From positions 1-32,227 of the forward strand of contig SVGF01000009.1 of NCBI GenBank assembly GCA_015056475.1: a stretch of DNA of 32,227 nucleotides, in the 5' to 3' direction. Positions 19,271 through 26,684 of this stretch are shown piece after piece. The position numbers were made by a program, and so were the translations under genes. The DNA is from Clostridiales bacterium (lineage in GTDB: Bacteria; Bacillota; Clostridia; HGM11327). The notes under the pieces are model-generated. The model had not been told where the DNA came from, did not search any database, and saw nothing but the letters and a program-made list of their open reading frames with translations. Within the stretch, counting starts at the first letter, position 1; each line of letters opens with the position of its first letter.

Positions 19271-20455
19271 TTACTTGGTTGCGTAGTTGTTAAAATAATT
19301 CTGAACTACAATAATGGGTGTGCCCTTGTCACCGCTACCGGAAGTAAGGTCACAAAGTGAACCGATAAGGTCTGTAAGTCTTCTTGGTGTTGTGCCCTGC
19401 GAAGCCATGTTACCCTTAAGGTCGCCCTCCTTAGCCTTGATCTTTTCAACGATAGCCTGACGGAGCTCTTCACCCGAAAGGTCTGCAAAGTCGTTGTCAG
19501 CCAAGAACTTGAGCTTGAGCTCATTGGGCAAACCGATAAGACCGTCAGTATAACCAACGCCTACAACCGGGTCTGCAAGCTCCCATATTTTACCAACGGG
19601 ATCCTTGAATGCGCCGTCGCCGTAAACGAGGGCTTCAACGTTTACGCCGGTTCTTGCAGAGATCTCTTTGCTTATAGCCTCAGCAACCTCCTGAGCGTTC
19701 TTGGGGAAAAGCTTTACTGTTTCTTCAGTTGCCTTGTTGGAGCCGAGCAAGCCGTAATCGGGCTGATAGCCGCTGCCGTTAACAGGCTTATTAAGAATAT
19801 CGCAGAGAGTAAGAACGTTCTTACCGCCGTGCTTGATTATCTTCTTCTGTGTTCTTGCTCTTGTGTGAGTGTCACAGCAGATAGCGTTCTTAGTGTAAGC
19901 AAGGATAGCTTCGGGCTTGTTTGCAAAAACGACTTCTATCTCACAGCCCTCTGCAGTAATAAGATCTGAATAATATTCAACGTAATCTACACCTGTAAAG
20001 GGGTGCTTAGCATAGCCAAACGCTGCTCTGTACTGTTCAAGCGAGAGGACGTCTGTGTAGGGGTTAACGTCGCAATCGTCAAGCAAATCAACGTCAAAAA
20101 GATGGTTGCCTACCTCGTCGGAAGGATATGAGAACATAAGAACTATCTTCTTTGCTCCTCTTGCAATGCCCTTTAAGCATATAGCAAAACGGTTACGGCT
20201 GAGAATGGGGAAAACCACGCCCACAGCCTCATCGCCAAACTTAGCTTTAACGTCTGAAGCAATGTCGTCAACGCTTGCATAGTTACCGTCAGCACGGGCA
20301 ACAACTGCCTCTGTTACTGCAACTATATCTCTGTCCTTAAGTGTGAAGCCGTCTTCCTTCATAGCCAATTCTACAGAATCAGCAACGATCTTCACAATAT
20401 CATCGCCCTGCTTGATGATCGGGGCTTTGATTCCTCTTGATATGGTACCTGCCAT
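19271..20455 (-). CDS. Coenzyme F420-0:L-glutamate ligase (CofE-like) family protein
   Basis: MAGTISRGIKAPIIKQGDDIVKIVADSVELA...DRDIVAVTEAVVARADGNY; start at 20455 supported by SD AAGGAG. Confidence 0.7.
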   Translation of the reverse strand: MAGTISRGIKAPIIKQGDDIVKIVADSVELAMKEDGFTLKDRDIVAVTEAVVARADGNYASVDDIASDVKAKFGDEAVGVVFPILSRNRFAICLKGIARGAKKIVLMFSYPSDEVGNHLFDVDLLDDCDVNPYTDVLSLEQYRAAFGYAKHPFTGVDYVEYYSDLITAEGCEIEVVFANKPEAILAYTKNAICCDTHTRARTQKKIIKHGGKNVLTLCDILNKPVNGSGYQPDYGLLGSNKATEETVKLFPKNAQEVAEAISKEISARTGVNVEALVYGDGAFKDPVGKIWELADPVVGVGYTDGLIGLPNELKLKFLADNDFADLSGEELRQAIVEKIKAKEGDLKGNMASQGTTPRRLTDLIGSLCDLTSGSGDKGTPIIVVQNYFNNYATK

Positions 20456-20670
20456 AAGATGAATCTCCTTAAATAATAAAAAATATCTAATGCGGAAACC
20501 GCATATTTTCGTAAATAAACTTGATTTATGCGCCAAAGGACACACTTTCAACCATATCTATAACATATATATTATACTCTTTGATGGCGTTTTTGTCAAT
20601 AATTTTTAGTCGGATTTTTTGAACAAATAATGAATTATTTGTATATTTTTTACTTTAGCGCAAAATGATA

Positions 20671-20718
20671 TTGCAAAATAATAAAATATATAGTATAATA
20701 AAGTCAAAGTCAGTCAAA
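20671..20718 (+). promoter_or_regulatory. ctsR promoter (TTGCAA-N17-TATAAT) with overlapping CtsR operator
   Basis: AGTCAAA-GTC-AGTCAAA at 20702-20718 matches the CtsR heptad repeat RGTCAAA-N3-RGTCAAA immediately downstream of the -10. Confidence 0.9.
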
Positions 20719-20749: not shown

Positions 20750-21202
20750 ATGCAAAACACAAGTGATATTATAGAATTGTTTTTGAAGGAGCTTATCGAT
20801 CAGAAAAACGGCGAGCTCGAATTAAAGCGTAACGAGCTTGCGCTGAAGTTCAATTGTGCGCCGTCGCAGATAAACTATGTTCTTGCAACGAGATTCACCG
20901 CAAACCGAGGCTACGTTGTAACCAGCCGAAAGGGTGGCGGAGGCTATATCCGTATCACAAGCATAGATATGGCAAGAAACGAATATATTCTGCATATTAT
21001 GGAACAGATAGGCCCTACAATAAGCGAAGCTTTGGCTTTCCAGACATTGAACGGACTTTTTGAGAGAGGAATAGTTTCAAAGCGTGAGGCTCAGCTTATG
21101 GCTTGCTCGCTTAAGGATGAAGCCCTCGGTGACAATATTGAGATCTGTGCAAGACGCAGAGCTTACGTGCTCAAAAATATGATGCGCGTTTTAATTGAAT
21201 AA
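20750..21202 (+). CDS. ctsR: Transcriptional repressor CtsR
   Basis: DIIELFLKELIDQKNGELELKRNELALKFNCAPSQINYVLATRFTANRGYVVTSRKGGGGYIRI. Confidence 0.97.
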   Translation: MQNTSDIIELFLKELIDQKNGELELKRNELALKFNCAPSQINYVLATRFTANRGYVVTSRKGGGGYIRITSIDMARNEYILHIMEQIGPTISEALAFQTLNGLFERGIVSKREAQLMACSLKDEALGDNIEICARRRAYVLKNMMRVLIE

Positions 21203-21218
21203 TGAAAGGATATAAATT

Positions 21219-21749
21219 ATGATCTGTCAACTCTGCGGTAAGCGCAACGCTACCGTTTGTATAAATATCGACCTTAACGGAGTAAAATCCATGCAGTACA
21301 TCTGCGAGGTCTGTGCCGAAGAAAGAAAGCTCAGAGAAAATCCCTCGGGAGAAGCCATTCTTCGCCTTGTAAACGACATAAAAAAGGAAAACGCAAAGCG
21401 CATTGCCCAGGTGCAGGAATCCCTGCCCGACATCACCTGCCCGCAATGCTCAACAACGTATAAGGATTTTATCAAAACAGGACTTTTGGGCTGTGATAAA
21501 TGCTATTCCTGCTTTAGCGAACAGCTTGAGCCGCTTTTGAGCCAGATAGCAAAGCATCCCAAGCCCACACCCGAGCCCGAAGCTGCAGCCCCTGCAAATG
21601 ATGACACAAACAAGCTTTTGAAGCTTAAGCTCAAGCTGAAGCAATGCATTGACGCAGAGGATTATGAACAAGCGGCAATAATCAGAGATGAGATAAACGA
21701 ATTGACGTCCGCAAAGGACATCAAGGAGGATGAGCAGGATGATCAATGA
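21219..21749 (+). CDS. mcsA: McsA-like adaptor (four CxxC, C-terminal UVR motif)
   Basis: CQLC, CEVC, CPQC, CDKC; KQCIDAEDYEQAAIIRDEINEL. Confidence 0.92.
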   Translation: MICQLCGKRNATVCINIDLNGVKSMQYICEVCAEERKLRENPSGEAILRLVNDIKKENAKRIAQVQESLPDITCPQCSTTYKDFIKTGLLGCDKCYSCFSEQLEPLLSQIAKHPKPTPEPEAAAPANDDTNKLLKLKLKLKQCIDAEDYEQAAIIRDEINELTSAKDIKEDEQDDQ

Positions 21750-22761
21750 AAATAAACGCTTTGCAGTATCATCAAGCGTAAGATTCTTTCGAAACGTAAG
21801 CGAAATACCGTTTGTAAGCCACATCTCCCCCGACGATGCGGACGATCTCAATCATAACACAAAGCTCTGCGTAAATTCACTTTGGGGAGAGGATAAATAT
21901 ACCGTTGAGAATTACTGTGGATTTGATACTCTTGACGAGCTTTATCTTATGGATTTTGCCAACAATACGTTTACGGCACCCTCGGGGGTTGAGAGCATAA
22001 CGCTTTGCTCCCCCGACGGCACGTCAACCATCACCACAAACAAGGGTGAGCACATCATCGTAAATTCCACAGCAGAGGGAAATGATATAAGCTACGCATA
22101 CAAGCAAGCAGTAAAATGCACAAACGCACTTTCATCAAGAATACCCTTTGCCACATCCGATGAAAAAGGCTTTTTGACCGCTAATCCGCTTTGTTGCGGC
22201 ACGGGATTAAAGGTTTGCATGCTTCTGCACTTGCCCGCGCTGTCACTCACGCCTGAATTTATGGTGCTGAATGAAGCACTCAAAGCTCGCGGCGTTGGAT
22301 TGAAAAGCTATTTTGTTGATAAAAAACGCACGTTCGGTTGCTTATACTACATTGTGAATAACCTTACTCTAGGCGTTGATGAAGACGAAACCGTCGAAAC
22401 AGTCATCGAAGCCGCAAAAAACGTGATCGCGAAGGAAGAACAAAAGCGAAGCGAGCTGATAGGCGCAAATAAGATATTCGTTCAGGACTCCGCATGGCGC
22501 GCACTCGGCGCATTGTCGTGCGCCAGAAGGCTCTCCGAAAGAGAATTCCTTACAGAGCTTTCAAGCATAAGGCTTGGAATCACTCTCGGAGAATTCGATA
22601 TCGATATCGACACAATAGATCCGCTCCTGTTTAAGGGCACAAAGCACTACGTAAAAGAAAAGATCAAAAGCAGCGATGCTCCGGACGGCATTACCGAAGA
22701 CGTAATGCGCGCAAGGATCATGCGCGAGGAGATCGCCCCAATTTTGAAGGGCTTGTTATAA
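21739..22761 (+). CDS. mcsB: McsB-like protein arginine kinase homologue, apparently catalytically degenerate
   Basis: Phosphagen-kinase fold landmarks retained (GFLTANPLCCGTGLKVCMLLHLPALSLT, NNLTLGVDEDETVE) and operon position, but catalytic motifs changed. Start 21739 is preferred (AAGGAGG 9 nt upstream); 21730 also possible. Confidence 0.85.
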   Translation: MINENKRFAVSSSVRFFRNVSEIPFVSHISPDDADDLNHNTKLCVNSLWGEDKYTVENYCGFDTLDELYLMDFANNTFTAPSGVESITLCSPDGTSTITTNKGEHIIVNSTAEGNDISYAYKQAVKCTNALSSRIPFATSDEKGFLTANPLCCGTGLKVCMLLHLPALSLTPEFMVLNEALKARGVGLKSYFVDKKRTFGCLYYIVNNLTLGVDEDETVETVIEAAKNVIAKEEQKRSELIGANKIFVQDSAWRALGALSCARRLSEREFLTELSSIRLGITLGEFDIDIDTIDPLLFKGTKHYVKEKIKSSDAPDGITEDVMRARIMREEIAPILKGLL

Positions 22762-22805: not shown

Positions 22806-25274
22806 ATGGAAATATTTAATTTAATGAGCGACAACGCCAAAAGAATAATGGATATCGCAACCGACGAGGCTAAAGCACAAAAGCAAAACTTCGTAGGCAC
22901 CGAGCATATCCTTTTGGGGCTTTTGGATGCAGAATCAGAGGTCGCATTTATATTCAATGAGCTTGGAATAAAATACTCCGATGCTAAAAAATACGTTGAC
23001 GATATACACAAGGAAAAGGAACCCTTATTCACCACCATAATATCCTATTCCGCAAAGGCAAAGGCCGCACTCCAAAGATGCTTGAACAAAGCCAAGCAAA
23101 ACGACACACATATCGTGCGCACGGAGGATATTGCAACAGAGATATTATCCGACAAGGAATGCAAGGCTTGCCAATGCATAACTGCTTTGGGCGTTGACGT
23201 TGAGCTGGTAAGAAAAACGTTTATTGACCTTTTCTCAAAGGTAACACCAAACGTTATCCCGCAGGAGGCTGCTCCCAAGCAGGAAAAGCCCGCCTCAATT
23301 CTTCAGAAATACACAAAAAATCTCTGTGCAATGGCAAGGGCGGGCGAATTTGACCCCGTTATAGGCAGGGACACCGAAATTGAGCGTGTACTGCAGATAC
23401 TTTGCAGACGAAACAAGAACAATCCCGTGCTGATAGGCGAGCCAGGCGTAGGTAAAACTGTAATAGCACAAGGTCTTGCGCAAAGAATAGCCCAGGGCAA
23501 CGTCCCCGACGCAATGAAAAACAAGGACATACTCTCTCTTGAAATGGGCGCACTTGTTGCTGGCGCAAAATACAGGGGCGAATTTGAGGACAGACTTTAC
23601 AAGCTCGTAGACGAAGTAAGAAAAAGCTCCGGCGCAATACTCTTTATAGATGAGATACACACAATAGTGGGTGCAGGTGGTGTTGAAGGCTCAATGGATG
23701 CGGCAAACATATTAAAGCCTGCACTCGCAAGCGGCTCAATGCAGGTCATCGGCGCTACAACCACAAGGGAATACAAGCGCAGTATAGAAAAGGATTCCGC
23801 ACTTGAAAGGCGTTTCCAATCCGTTATGATAAACGAGCCCGATATCGAGCAGACTATTGAGATACTCAAGGGCTTGCGCAAGACTTACGAGGAGCATCAC
23901 GGTGTTGTGATCTCCGACGAAGCCATCCGCACGGCAGTCACACTCTCGCAAAGATATATTTCCGACAGATATATGCCCGACAAGGCAATTGACGTAATTG
24001 ACGAAGCAGCATCAAGAGTAAGGCTCAACGCTCATATTGAGCCTATATCACTCACGGAGCTTGAGAATGAGCTTGCAGAGGTAACCGCAGCCAAGAGAAA
24101 AGCTGTTGAAGCTCAGGATTTTGAGAGCGCGGCATCACTTCGCGATAAAGAGCGCGCCATAAAAGCTCAAATGGATGCAAAGCAGGACGAATGGCTCAGC
24201 TTGCAGAAATCAAAGAAGCTCAACGTTACGGCAGAAAGCATTGCGGGAGTAGTATCGTTCATGACGGGTATTCCGGTTGCAAAAATAAGCGAGGACGAAA
24301 AGCAGAGATTATTAAAGCTTGAAGACGTGCTCCACAACAGAGTTGTGGGTCAGCACGAGGCTGTAAGGGCTATTTCAACCGCCATAAGACGCTCAAGAGC
24401 GGGAATTTCGGACCCCAGACGTCCCATCGGCACTTTCTTGTTTGTAGGACCCACGGGCGTTGGTAAGACTGAACTTTGTAAAGCATTGGCAGACACACTT
24501 TTTGGTGACGAGGATGCTCTCATAAGAATAGACATGAGCGAATACATGGAGCTTCACTCCGTTTCAAAGCTCATAGGCTCTCCCCCGGGATACGTCGGCT
24601 ACGAGGAAGGCGGCCAGCTTACTGAAAGAGTACGTCGCAAGCCGTACTCAGTGCTTTTGTTTGACGAGGTTGAAAAGGCGCATCCCGACGTTTTCAACAT
24701 AATGCTCCAGCTTCTCGACGACGGCAGACTCACCGATTCTCAGGGCAGGACGGTAAATTTCAGAAACACTGTCATCGTTCTTACAAGTAACGCAGGTGCT
24801 TCACTCGTTAAAAAGCAGAATACTCTCGGCTTTGCTTCCACAAATCAAAAAGCTTCCGACCACGAGGCTATGAAGTCCGCCATCATGGATGAGGTTAAAA
24901 GAATATTCCGTCCCGAATTTATCAACAGGCTTGACGATATAATCACCTTCAGCAAGCTGTCCGAGGATGATATGAGGCAGATAGTTGATATCATGCTAAA
25001 GGCAACGTTTGAGCGCATTGCTCAAAAGGGTATCAACGTTGTAGCTACCGACAAAGCAAGACAAATGCTCGCCGAAAAGGGCTACGATCCCGTTTACGGC
25101 GCAAGACCCCTCAAGAGATTGATACAAAAGACGGTTGAAGACAAGCTCTCTGAATGTATACTTTCAGGAAACGGCACTCACGCAGAATATATACTCGATT
25201 GGGCTGAGGATGATTTTATCGTTTGCGAAAACGTAACCCTCCCCCAGCACGAGATCATAACCGCAAAGCAGTAA
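22806..25274 (+). CDS. clpC: ATP-dependent Clp protease ATP-binding subunit ClpC
   Basis: N-terminal GTEHILLGLL repeat, GEPGVGKT and GPTGVGKT Walker A motifs, UVR/M-domain, NTLGF ClpP-binding-type loop. Confidence 0.96.
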   Translation: MEIFNLMSDNAKRIMDIATDEAKAQKQNFVGTEHILLGLLDAESEVAFIFNELGIKYSDAKKYVDDIHKEKEPLFTTIISYSAKAKAALQRCLNKAKQNDTHIVRTEDIATEILSDKECKACQCITALGVDVELVRKTFIDLFSKVTPNVIPQEAAPKQEKPASILQKYTKNLCAMARAGEFDPVIGRDTEIERVLQILCRRNKNNPVLIGEPGVGKTVIAQGLAQRIAQGNVPDAMKNKDILSLEMGALVAGAKYRGEFEDRLYKLVDEVRKSSGAILFIDEIHTIVGAGGVEGSMDAANILKPALASGSMQVIGATTTREYKRSIEKDSALERRFQSVMINEPDIEQTIEILKGLRKTYEEHHGVVISDEAIRTAVTLSQRYISDRYMPDKAIDVIDEAASRVRLNAHIEPISLTELENELAEVTAAKRKAVEAQDFESAASLRDKERAIKAQMDAKQDEWLSLQKSKKLNVTAESIAGVVSFMTGIPVAKISEDEKQRLLKLEDVLHNRVVGQHEAVRAISTAIRRSRAGISDPRRPIGTFLFVGPTGVGKTELCKALADTLFGDEDALIRIDMSEYMELHSVSKLIGSPPGYVGYEEGGQLTERVRRKPYSVLLFDEVEKAHPDVFNIMLQLLDDGRLTDSQGRTVNFRNTVIVLTSNAGASLVKKQNTLGFASTNQKASDHEAMKSAIMDEVKRIFRPEFINRLDDIITFSKLSEDDMRQIVDIMLKATFERIAQKGINVVATDKARQMLAEKGYDPVYGARPLKRLIQKTVEDKLSECILSGNGTHAEYILDWAEDDFIVCENVTLPQHEIITAKQ

Positions 25275-25289: not shown

Positions 25290-26684
25290 ATGGCGCAAAA
25301 AGAATCAAAAACATATACCTGCCGTGAATGCGGATATATGACGTCAAAATGGCTCGGCAAATGCCCTTCGTGCATGACTTGGGACAGCTTTGACGTTACC
25401 CCGTCCTCACAGCAAACAGCCGCAAAGGCATCCGCAAGCGCTACCCCTGCAGTTAAGCTCACCGACGTGACAACGGACAGTTCCGTCAGATTCAAAACGG
25501 GAATGAGCGAATTTGACAGAGTGCTCGGCGGTGGACTTGTAAACGGCTCGTTAGTGCTTATCGGCGGTGACCCCGGAATAGGTAAATCGACCCTCATGCT
25601 TCAGATAAGCAAATATCTTGCAGACGGCGGCAAAAAGGTGCTCTACGTTTCGGGTGAGGAGTCCATGAGCCAGATAAAGCTCCGTGCCAACAGATTAAAA
25701 ATAAATAATCCGTCAATCTATCTTTACTCCGAAACAGATACCGACGCCGTTGTTAACAAGGCGCTCGATGAGCGTCCCGACTTTTTGATAGTGGACTCCA
25801 TCCAGACAATGAACAAAAAGGAGCTTTCAGCGGTATCGGGCAGCATTTCACAGGTAAGGGAGGCAACCGGCGCGTTTATGAGCCTCGCCAAAAACGAAGG
25901 CATCCCCGTGCTGGTTGTAGGTCACGTTACAAAGGACGGCGCAATTGCAGGGCCTAAAATTCTTGAGCACATGGTAGATACCGTGCTGTACTTTGAAGGC
26001 AATAACGACCATTCGTTCAGAATACTGCGCGCGGTAAAAAACAGATTCGGTCCTACAAACGAAATAGCAATTTTTGAAATGGCACAAAACGGGCTTGCCG
26101 AGATCACAAATCCGTCGGAGCTTTTTGTAAGTAAGCAGAGCTTTGACGTGCCGGGCTCGGCAGTCGTTGCTTCAATAAACGGCACAATGCCCGTGCTTGT
26201 TGAGGTGCAGGCACTTGTGTCAACTCTCCCCCACGAGGGCCGCCCAAGATGTGTAGTTGACGGCATCGACTACAACAAGCTCTCGCTCTTGTGTGCCGTG
26301 CTTCAAAACAGAGTTGGTATGGATATTCTTTCCAAGGACATATTCGTAAACATTGCAGGCGGCTTGACCATCAACGAGCCAGCTGTTGACCTTGCGGCGA
26401 TCCTTGCGGTATATTCCGCAGGCAAAGGAATCGTAATGCCAAAGGGTACTTGCGTATTCGGCGAGGTAGGACTTGCAGGTGAAATAAGAGGTGTTTCGTT
26501 TGCAGAAAAGAGAATAAGCGAAGCATTCAAAACAGGCTTCAGAAGGCTCATCATCCCTCGCGACAATTTAGATGCCGCAAAGGAATACGAGGACGATATG
26601 GAAATATGCGCCGCAAGAAACATTCGCGAGGCGGCTGAATGGATAATCGACCGCGCAAAAAATAACAGAGGTGACGCAAAATGA
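25290..26684 (+). CDS. radA: DNA repair protein RadA
   Basis: Zinc finger CRECGYMTSKWLGKCPSC; GGDPGIGKSTL; KNRFG motif; Lon-like C-terminal domain. Confidence 0.97.
   Translation: MAQKESKTYTCRECGYMTSKWLGKCPSCMTWDSFDVTPSSQQTAAKASASATPAVKLTDVTTDSSVRFKTGMSEFDRVLGGGLVNGSLVLIGGDPGIGKSTLMLQISKYLADGGKKVLYVSGEESMSQIKLRANRLKINNPSIYLYSETDTDAVVNKALDERPDFLIVDSIQTMNKKELSAVSGSISQVREATGAFMSLAKNEGIPVLVVGHVTKDGAIAGPKILEHMVDTVLYFEGNNDHSFRILRAVKNRFGPTNEIAIFEMAQNGLAEITNPSELFVSKQSFDVPGSAVVASINGTMPVLVEVQALVSTLPHEGRPRCVVDGIDYNKLSLLCAVLQNRVGMDILSKDIFVNIAGGLTINEPAVDLAAILAVYSAGKGIVMPKGTCVFGEVGLAGEIRGVSFAEKRISEAFKTGFRRLIIPRDNLDAAKEYEDDMEICAARNIREAAEWIIDRAKNNRGDAK

Follow-up and report, generated by a model that had tools for sequence, protein, structure and literature searches.

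A probable pseudo-McsB in the ctsR operon of a gut Clostridia lineage, with recurrent loss of the McsB catalytic cysteine in the class

The window analysed here is a stretch of 32,227 nucleotides of contig SVGF01000009.1, which belongs to a Clostridiales MAG of 1.99 Mb that is 79% complete (G000). It carries the genes of the CtsR circuit, preceded by a CtsR operator and followed by radA (Table 1). Four genomes of the order were compared (79-94% complete), namely, the window's own genome, its congeners G001 and G002 (94 and 79% complete) and G003 from a sister genus; the gene order ctsR-mcsA-mcsB-clpC is intact and a perfect CtsR box lies upstream of ctsR in all four. G001 and G002 are publicly available MAGs of Clostridia, of which one comes from water deer rectum, and a contig scan for further relatives returned these two only. 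The 5' end of mcsB overlaps mcsA. An AAGGAGG motif ending at 21729 leaves a 9-nt spacing to the ATG at 21739 and none to the in-frame ATG at 21730, so that the former is the likelier start codon. The gene divergent to ctsR, which encodes a 426-aa F420-0:gamma-glutamyl ligase-like protein, also adjoins ctsR in G002 and was not found in the stretch of G003 that was read.

Table 1. Features of the ctsR operon and its surroundings in the window (residue numbers of McsB follow B. subtilis McsB).
Feature	Position	Strand	Evidence or remark
F420-0:gamma-glutamyl ligase-like gene	19271-20551	-	PF01996, 192 bits
TATAAT box	20694-20699	+	operator lies just downstream
CtsR operator AGTCAAAgtcAGTCAAA, perfect	20702..20718	+	0 mismatches to RGTCAAANNNRGTCAAA
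ctsR, repressor	20750..21202	+	Pfam CtsR 109.5 bits, CtsR_C 50.9 bits; PDB 3h0d E=6e-29
Lys codon at the CtsR Arg62 position (residue before GGGG)	20930..20932	+	alignment to 3h0d
mcsA, kinase activator	21219..21749	+	NF053706 101.5 bits (cut-off 210); McsA chain of 8wtb E=6e-16
mcsB homologue without catalytic site (pseudo-McsB)	21739..22761	+	PF00217 and NF002194 matches
SSSVRFFRN, degenerate SxRIRLARN	21769..21795	+	R29 lost; R31, R34 kept
NKGEHIIVN, degenerate NEEDHIRIQ	22039..22065	+	E121G, D122E, R125I; H123 kept
LTANPLCCGTG	22174-22206	+	part of the catalytic-Cys loop
Degenerate catalytic-Cys loop LTANPLCCGTGLK	22174..22212	+	C167N, N170C, R176K
Degenerate RGxYGEGSE...NQ loop KSYFVDKKRTFGCLYYIVNN	22303..22362	+	R207K, G211V, E212D
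VDKKRTFGCLYYIVNN	22315-22362	+	string quoted in the earlier note, located
clpC	22806..25274	+	Pfam/NCBIfam profiles
radA	25290-26684	+	

The product of the third gene of the operon retains the phosphagen kinase fold by profile (PF00217, 100.2 bits, above the gathering cut-off of 22.4), while it falls below the cut-offs of the McsB equivalog profiles (NF053707, 134 vs 500 bits; NF002194, 186 vs 385 bits). Its closest solved relatives are the McsBs 8wtb, 6tv6, 8gqd and 6fh1. The motifs were aligned to the B. subtilis McsB chain (8wtb) and 27 McsBs of the class, and residues are numbered as in B. subtilis McsB. Eight of the nine phosphagen-kinase active-site positions are lost (C167N, E121G, E212D, R29S, R125I, R176K, R207K, and N170C), together with the changes D122E, G211V, and R337E; R31 is the sole active-site position kept. 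Both guanidinium-binding carboxylates are thus replaced (E121 by Gly, E212 by Asp), and the phosphate-site arginines other than R31, i.e., R29, R125, R176 and R207, have become Ser, Ile, Lys and Lys. Among the other near-invariant columns, 18 of 44 are lost and 26 kept (Fisher p 0.011 against the eight of nine), so the losses cluster in the active site. Chance is excluded for these changes, because in the 107 class McsBs with C167 conservation is 98-100% at R29, R31, R34, E121, D122, H123, R125, R176, R207 and E212.

Arginine kinase holds the guanidinium group of its substrate through Glu225, Glu314 and Cys271, and it binds the phosphoryl group through Arg126, Arg229, Arg309 and Arg330 (PMC11075012). 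Judging from shared motifs, McsB E121, C167 and E212 appear to correspond to Glu225, Cys271 and Glu314, and R31, R125 and R207 to Arg126, Arg229 and Arg309. Arginine kinase activity has very probably been lost from this protein. An AlphaFold2 prediction from three sequences (pLDDT 37, pTM 0.28) gave no usable model. The earlier note on this DNA, made from the sequence alone, had described a pseudo-arginine-kinase with Asn at the position of the catalytic cysteine. Every motif string that it quoted is present where it was placed, its comparison with B. subtilis McsB agrees with the alignment to 8wtb and the 27 McsBs, the Asn was confirmed, and the description is well supported by the eight lost active-site positions and by losses common to the genus.

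The McsBs of G001 and G002 are 43-46% identical to that of the window, are encoded by full-length open frames and have lost the same sites, with Val or Asn at C167, Ser or Gly at E121, and Leu or Ile at R125. The replacement residues differ among the three congeneric species; at C167, Asn is found in the window and G002, Val in G001, and Ser in G003. The sister-genus McsB is intermediate, i.e., it has C167S, E212H and a remodelled E212 loop, and its RIRLARN and NEEDHIRIQ motifs are intact. A Cys at position 170 is present in all three congeners, and substitutions of C271 in phosphagen kinases are known to lower activity without abolishing it. Both points speak for a rebuilt kinase, in which Cys170 or some other residue would stand in for C167 and the substrate might be a different one. 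However, E121, E212, R29, R125, R176 and R207 have changed as well, the three species differ in their substitutions, and no LMW-PTP was found in their genomes (see below), making such a kinase highly doubtful.

Differences among the three congeneric mcsB genes amount to about 0.42-0.46 at first, 0.33-0.35 at second, and 0.65-0.71 at third codon positions. Third positions are saturated and second positions lower, and therefore silent change has reached saturation while the protein is still constrained; as NG86 dS is saturated too, no dN/dS ratio could be obtained. Within the genus (g1), pairs of genomes share 43-45% identity in McsB, 65-73% in CtsR and 64-68% in ClpC, whereas 16 intact same-family pairs at the same ClpC identity have a median McsB identity of about 60%. 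Since McsB diverged faster than its partners, selection on it is partly relaxed in the genus. This difference in identity and the overlap of mcsB with mcsA would suit a functionless McsB that survives through translational coupling to mcsA and clpC and by slow decay. Yet the frame is open in three deeply diverged species, in which second codon positions are twice as conserved as third, and 27 of 53 near-invariant columns are kept overall, including R34, H123, G172, R272 and R341. Had the gene decayed freely while synonymous sites diverged to saturation, stops and frameshifts would be expected, and such dead weight is therefore improbable; a decaying pseudogene is ruled out by the open frames and the codon-position pattern in the three species. 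The earlier note had set its reading against intact close relatives beside one neutrally decaying copy; what was found is equally degenerate congeners with open frames and constrained second positions.

No second mcsB, which the note had proposed to look for, was found with PF00217 in the window's own genome or NF053707 across the order (one McsB-family match per genome), an absence to be read with care, as these two profiles matched none of 14 control genomes, B. subtilis included. B. subtilis is known to have McsB, and in its control genome the MecA and LMW-PTP profiles matched and the McsB profiles did not. All residue statements rest on sequences that were read directly.

McsA of the window keeps four CxxC pairs (C3/C6, C29/C32, C74/C77, C92/C95), as had been noted. 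CtsR of each of the order's four genomes has Lys in place of Arg62, a reported phosphorylation target of McsB (PMC11224942), and the residue is Arg in 97/97 sampled class genomes in which McsB has C167. A wider pattern search returned two genomes with Lys62 beside an intact McsB (L168 in G252 and L170 in G301), and hence the replacement supports, but does not prove, the loss of the kinase. Lys62 is therefore no exclusive sign that the kinase has been lost, and these two cases show that Arg62 of CtsR is not always needed.

In ClpC, the first GTEHILLG repeat is kept and the second is degenerate (IVRTEDIATEIL), so that the earlier statement that the repeat is kept holds for the first copy only. 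Alignment of the N-terminal domain indicates that E32 and E106 of the phosphoarginine (pArg) pockets are kept, while R9, P82, R83 and G104 have changed; within the genus, the changes around the pockets are R9N, P82A/T, and R83K. With both glutamates in place, a loss on the receptor side is not evident. The pockets of S. aureus ClpC also anchor its resting state (PMC12583610), which could explain the retention. The suggestion that ClpC targeting by pArg is lost or rewired is thus favoured by CtsR Lys62 and the missing phosphatase, and is weakened by the retained ClpC glutamates.

The altered surroundings of these pockets and the apparent absence of MecA from the order, whose four genomes yielded no homologue, would also agree with a pseudo-McsB that acts mainly on the ClpC N-terminal domain, as a MecA-like adaptor or inhibitor, and not on CtsR. 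MecA is, however, absent too from most of the class genomes with an intact McsB that were checked, and a role centred on ClpC is rather unlikely, although it is, along with simple slow decay, one of the two main rivals to the reading given below. With MecA rare in the class genomes checked as well as not found in the order, MecA itself was rejected as a replacement adaptor.

On the phosphatase side, which the earlier note had named as a check, PF01451 (LMW-PTP/YwlE) had no match in G000, G001, and G002 (79-94% complete), and the YwlE-type motif CxGNTCRSP, in which Thr instead of Ile is taken here as the criterion for a YwlE-type phosphatase, was not found in these three genomes either. LMW-PTP is present in 169/196 class genomes, G003 included. 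The state of the pathway, with no YwlE family member found and Lys62 in CtsR, fits a loss of phosphoarginine signalling.

The best explanation, with a probability of about 0.6, is that the window gene encodes a pseudo-McsB that carries out no arginine phosphotransfer and that selection maintains, in a non-catalytic capacity, within the CtsR-McsA-McsB-ClpC module. At the sequence level, the loss of catalytic residues is genus-wide, gene, operon and operator are kept, no LMW-PTP/YwlE was found, and CtsR Arg62 has become Lys. From this we infer the absence of kinase activity, an anti-repressor or ClpC role, redox gating by McsA and the binding events that these would involve. The protein most likely serves as a partner of CtsR and/or ClpC that is gated by McsA and has no catalytic function. 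In such a circuit, reduced McsA would hold the pseudo-McsB; oxidation of the McsA cysteines or loss of zinc would release it; and the freed protein would displace CtsR from its operator and/or dock on ClpC without phosphoarginine as a mark. The arginine-phosphate arm, comprising the kinase site, the phosphatase and Arg62 of CtsR, has presumably been dismantled. In B. subtilis, oxidation of McsA frees McsB, which then takes CtsR off DNA independently of its kinase activity, whereas its ClpC-adaptor role needs that activity (PMC5506225). An McsA with all its cysteines, a CtsR with its operator and an McsB that lacks the catalytic site fit a circuit of which the kinase-independent branch is all that is left. 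Adaptor action without catalysis would represent a new mode, since the B. subtilis adaptor needs the kinase, and this speaks against the reading. The earlier proposal of an McsB retained in the role of adaptor or regulator is plausible.

The window protein resembles the McsBs of B. subtilis, G. stearothermophilus and S. aureus (6tv6, 8wtb, 6fh1, 8gqd) in whole-length homology, operon and CtsR operator, and in the landmarks of the dimerisation domain, including R272 and R341-A342. Unlike these, it is without C167, E121/E212 and R29/R125/R176/R207, and its RDxxRA pArg-receptor motif has Glu in place of R337 (Ala in G001). The system also differs from known ones in having no YwlE that could be found in the genome and Lys for CtsR Arg62. 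The bacterial Ser/Thr pseudokinases, which keep a kinase fold without catalytic residues as a regulator (PMC12599244), are a functional parallel with an unrelated fold. No reports of a pseudo-enzyme McsB were found in the open-access literature searched.

The earlier note took the case for a single curiosity, which it is not. C167 is absent in 19 of 126 Clostridia McsBs (about 15%), from ten genera and seven families, and a tree of ClpC fragments places at least five C167 changes on well-supported branches and seven on the best tree. By this tree, C167 has been lost independently at least five times in the class, ruling out an oddity of one genus. Families f31, f40, f57, and f65 contain members both with and without C167. 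The YwlE-type motif occurs in 53 of the 107 genomes whose McsB has C167 and in none of the 19 whose McsB lacks it (Fisher p 1.6e-5 when genomes are counted and 0.003 when genera are counted, p-values that ignore relatedness). On the ClpC tree, all independent pairs that differ in the phosphatase agree in direction and are too few for significance, and the association is only suggestive once relatedness is allowed for. The counts of McsBs without C167, the number of losses and the lack of the motif beside them are new in this work.

A close counterpart is lineage f42/g53 (L076, L077, L078, L080), in which McsB degenerated independently at the same sites, with Asn or Asp at C167, NEEDH replaced convergently by G-x-x-E-H, and the operon kept. 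In contrast to the window, ClpC Glu32 is Thr, with T81R and a changed R83, in the three members with a readable ClpC, CtsR Arg62 is kept, and the genomes have LMW-PTP-family proteins, none with the YwlE-type motif. The pArg receptor may thus be lost too in f42/g53, which is possibly a cleaner case of complete loss of the pArg system than the window.

The kinase fold of McsB can apparently outlive its chemistry, as the gut Clostridia lineage described here and the at least five losses suggest. It is possible, if tentative at somewhat less than even odds, that McsB has repeatedly become, in several Clostridia lineages, a pseudokinase that runs the CtsR/ClpC circuit by binding, under McsA and without phosphoarginine. 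If true, the anti-repressor/adaptor function would be separable from protein-arginine phosphorylation, and perhaps older. The kinase and adaptor roles are hard to separate in B. subtilis, because adaptor activity needs the kinase (PMC5506225), and naturally occurring McsBs that lack the catalytic site and persist alongside McsA, CtsR, and ClpC would be ready-made separation-of-function proteins. The C167 state and the YwlE-type phosphatase motif together supply a sequence marker by which the Firmicutes that actually use phosphoarginine could be predicted. Annotation by homology only would name all such proteins protein arginine kinase, including the roughly 15% of those sampled that are without the catalytic Cys.

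A further C167-less lineage, f6/g7 (L079, L081, L082, L086; genomes of ~0.9 Mb), has C167S as its sole active-site change, and its McsBs may still be active. In f6/g7, ctsR was not found beside mcsB and the McsA-like frames are short (56-64 aa, 2 CxxC), representing a reduced version of the module. Lastly, in family f31, to which the genomes G033 and G091 with intact McsBs also belong, L074 (G116) and L075 (G184) have very divergent McsBs with Phe or Asp at C167, and the tetraglycine loop of their CtsR is broken (GGNG, GEGG).
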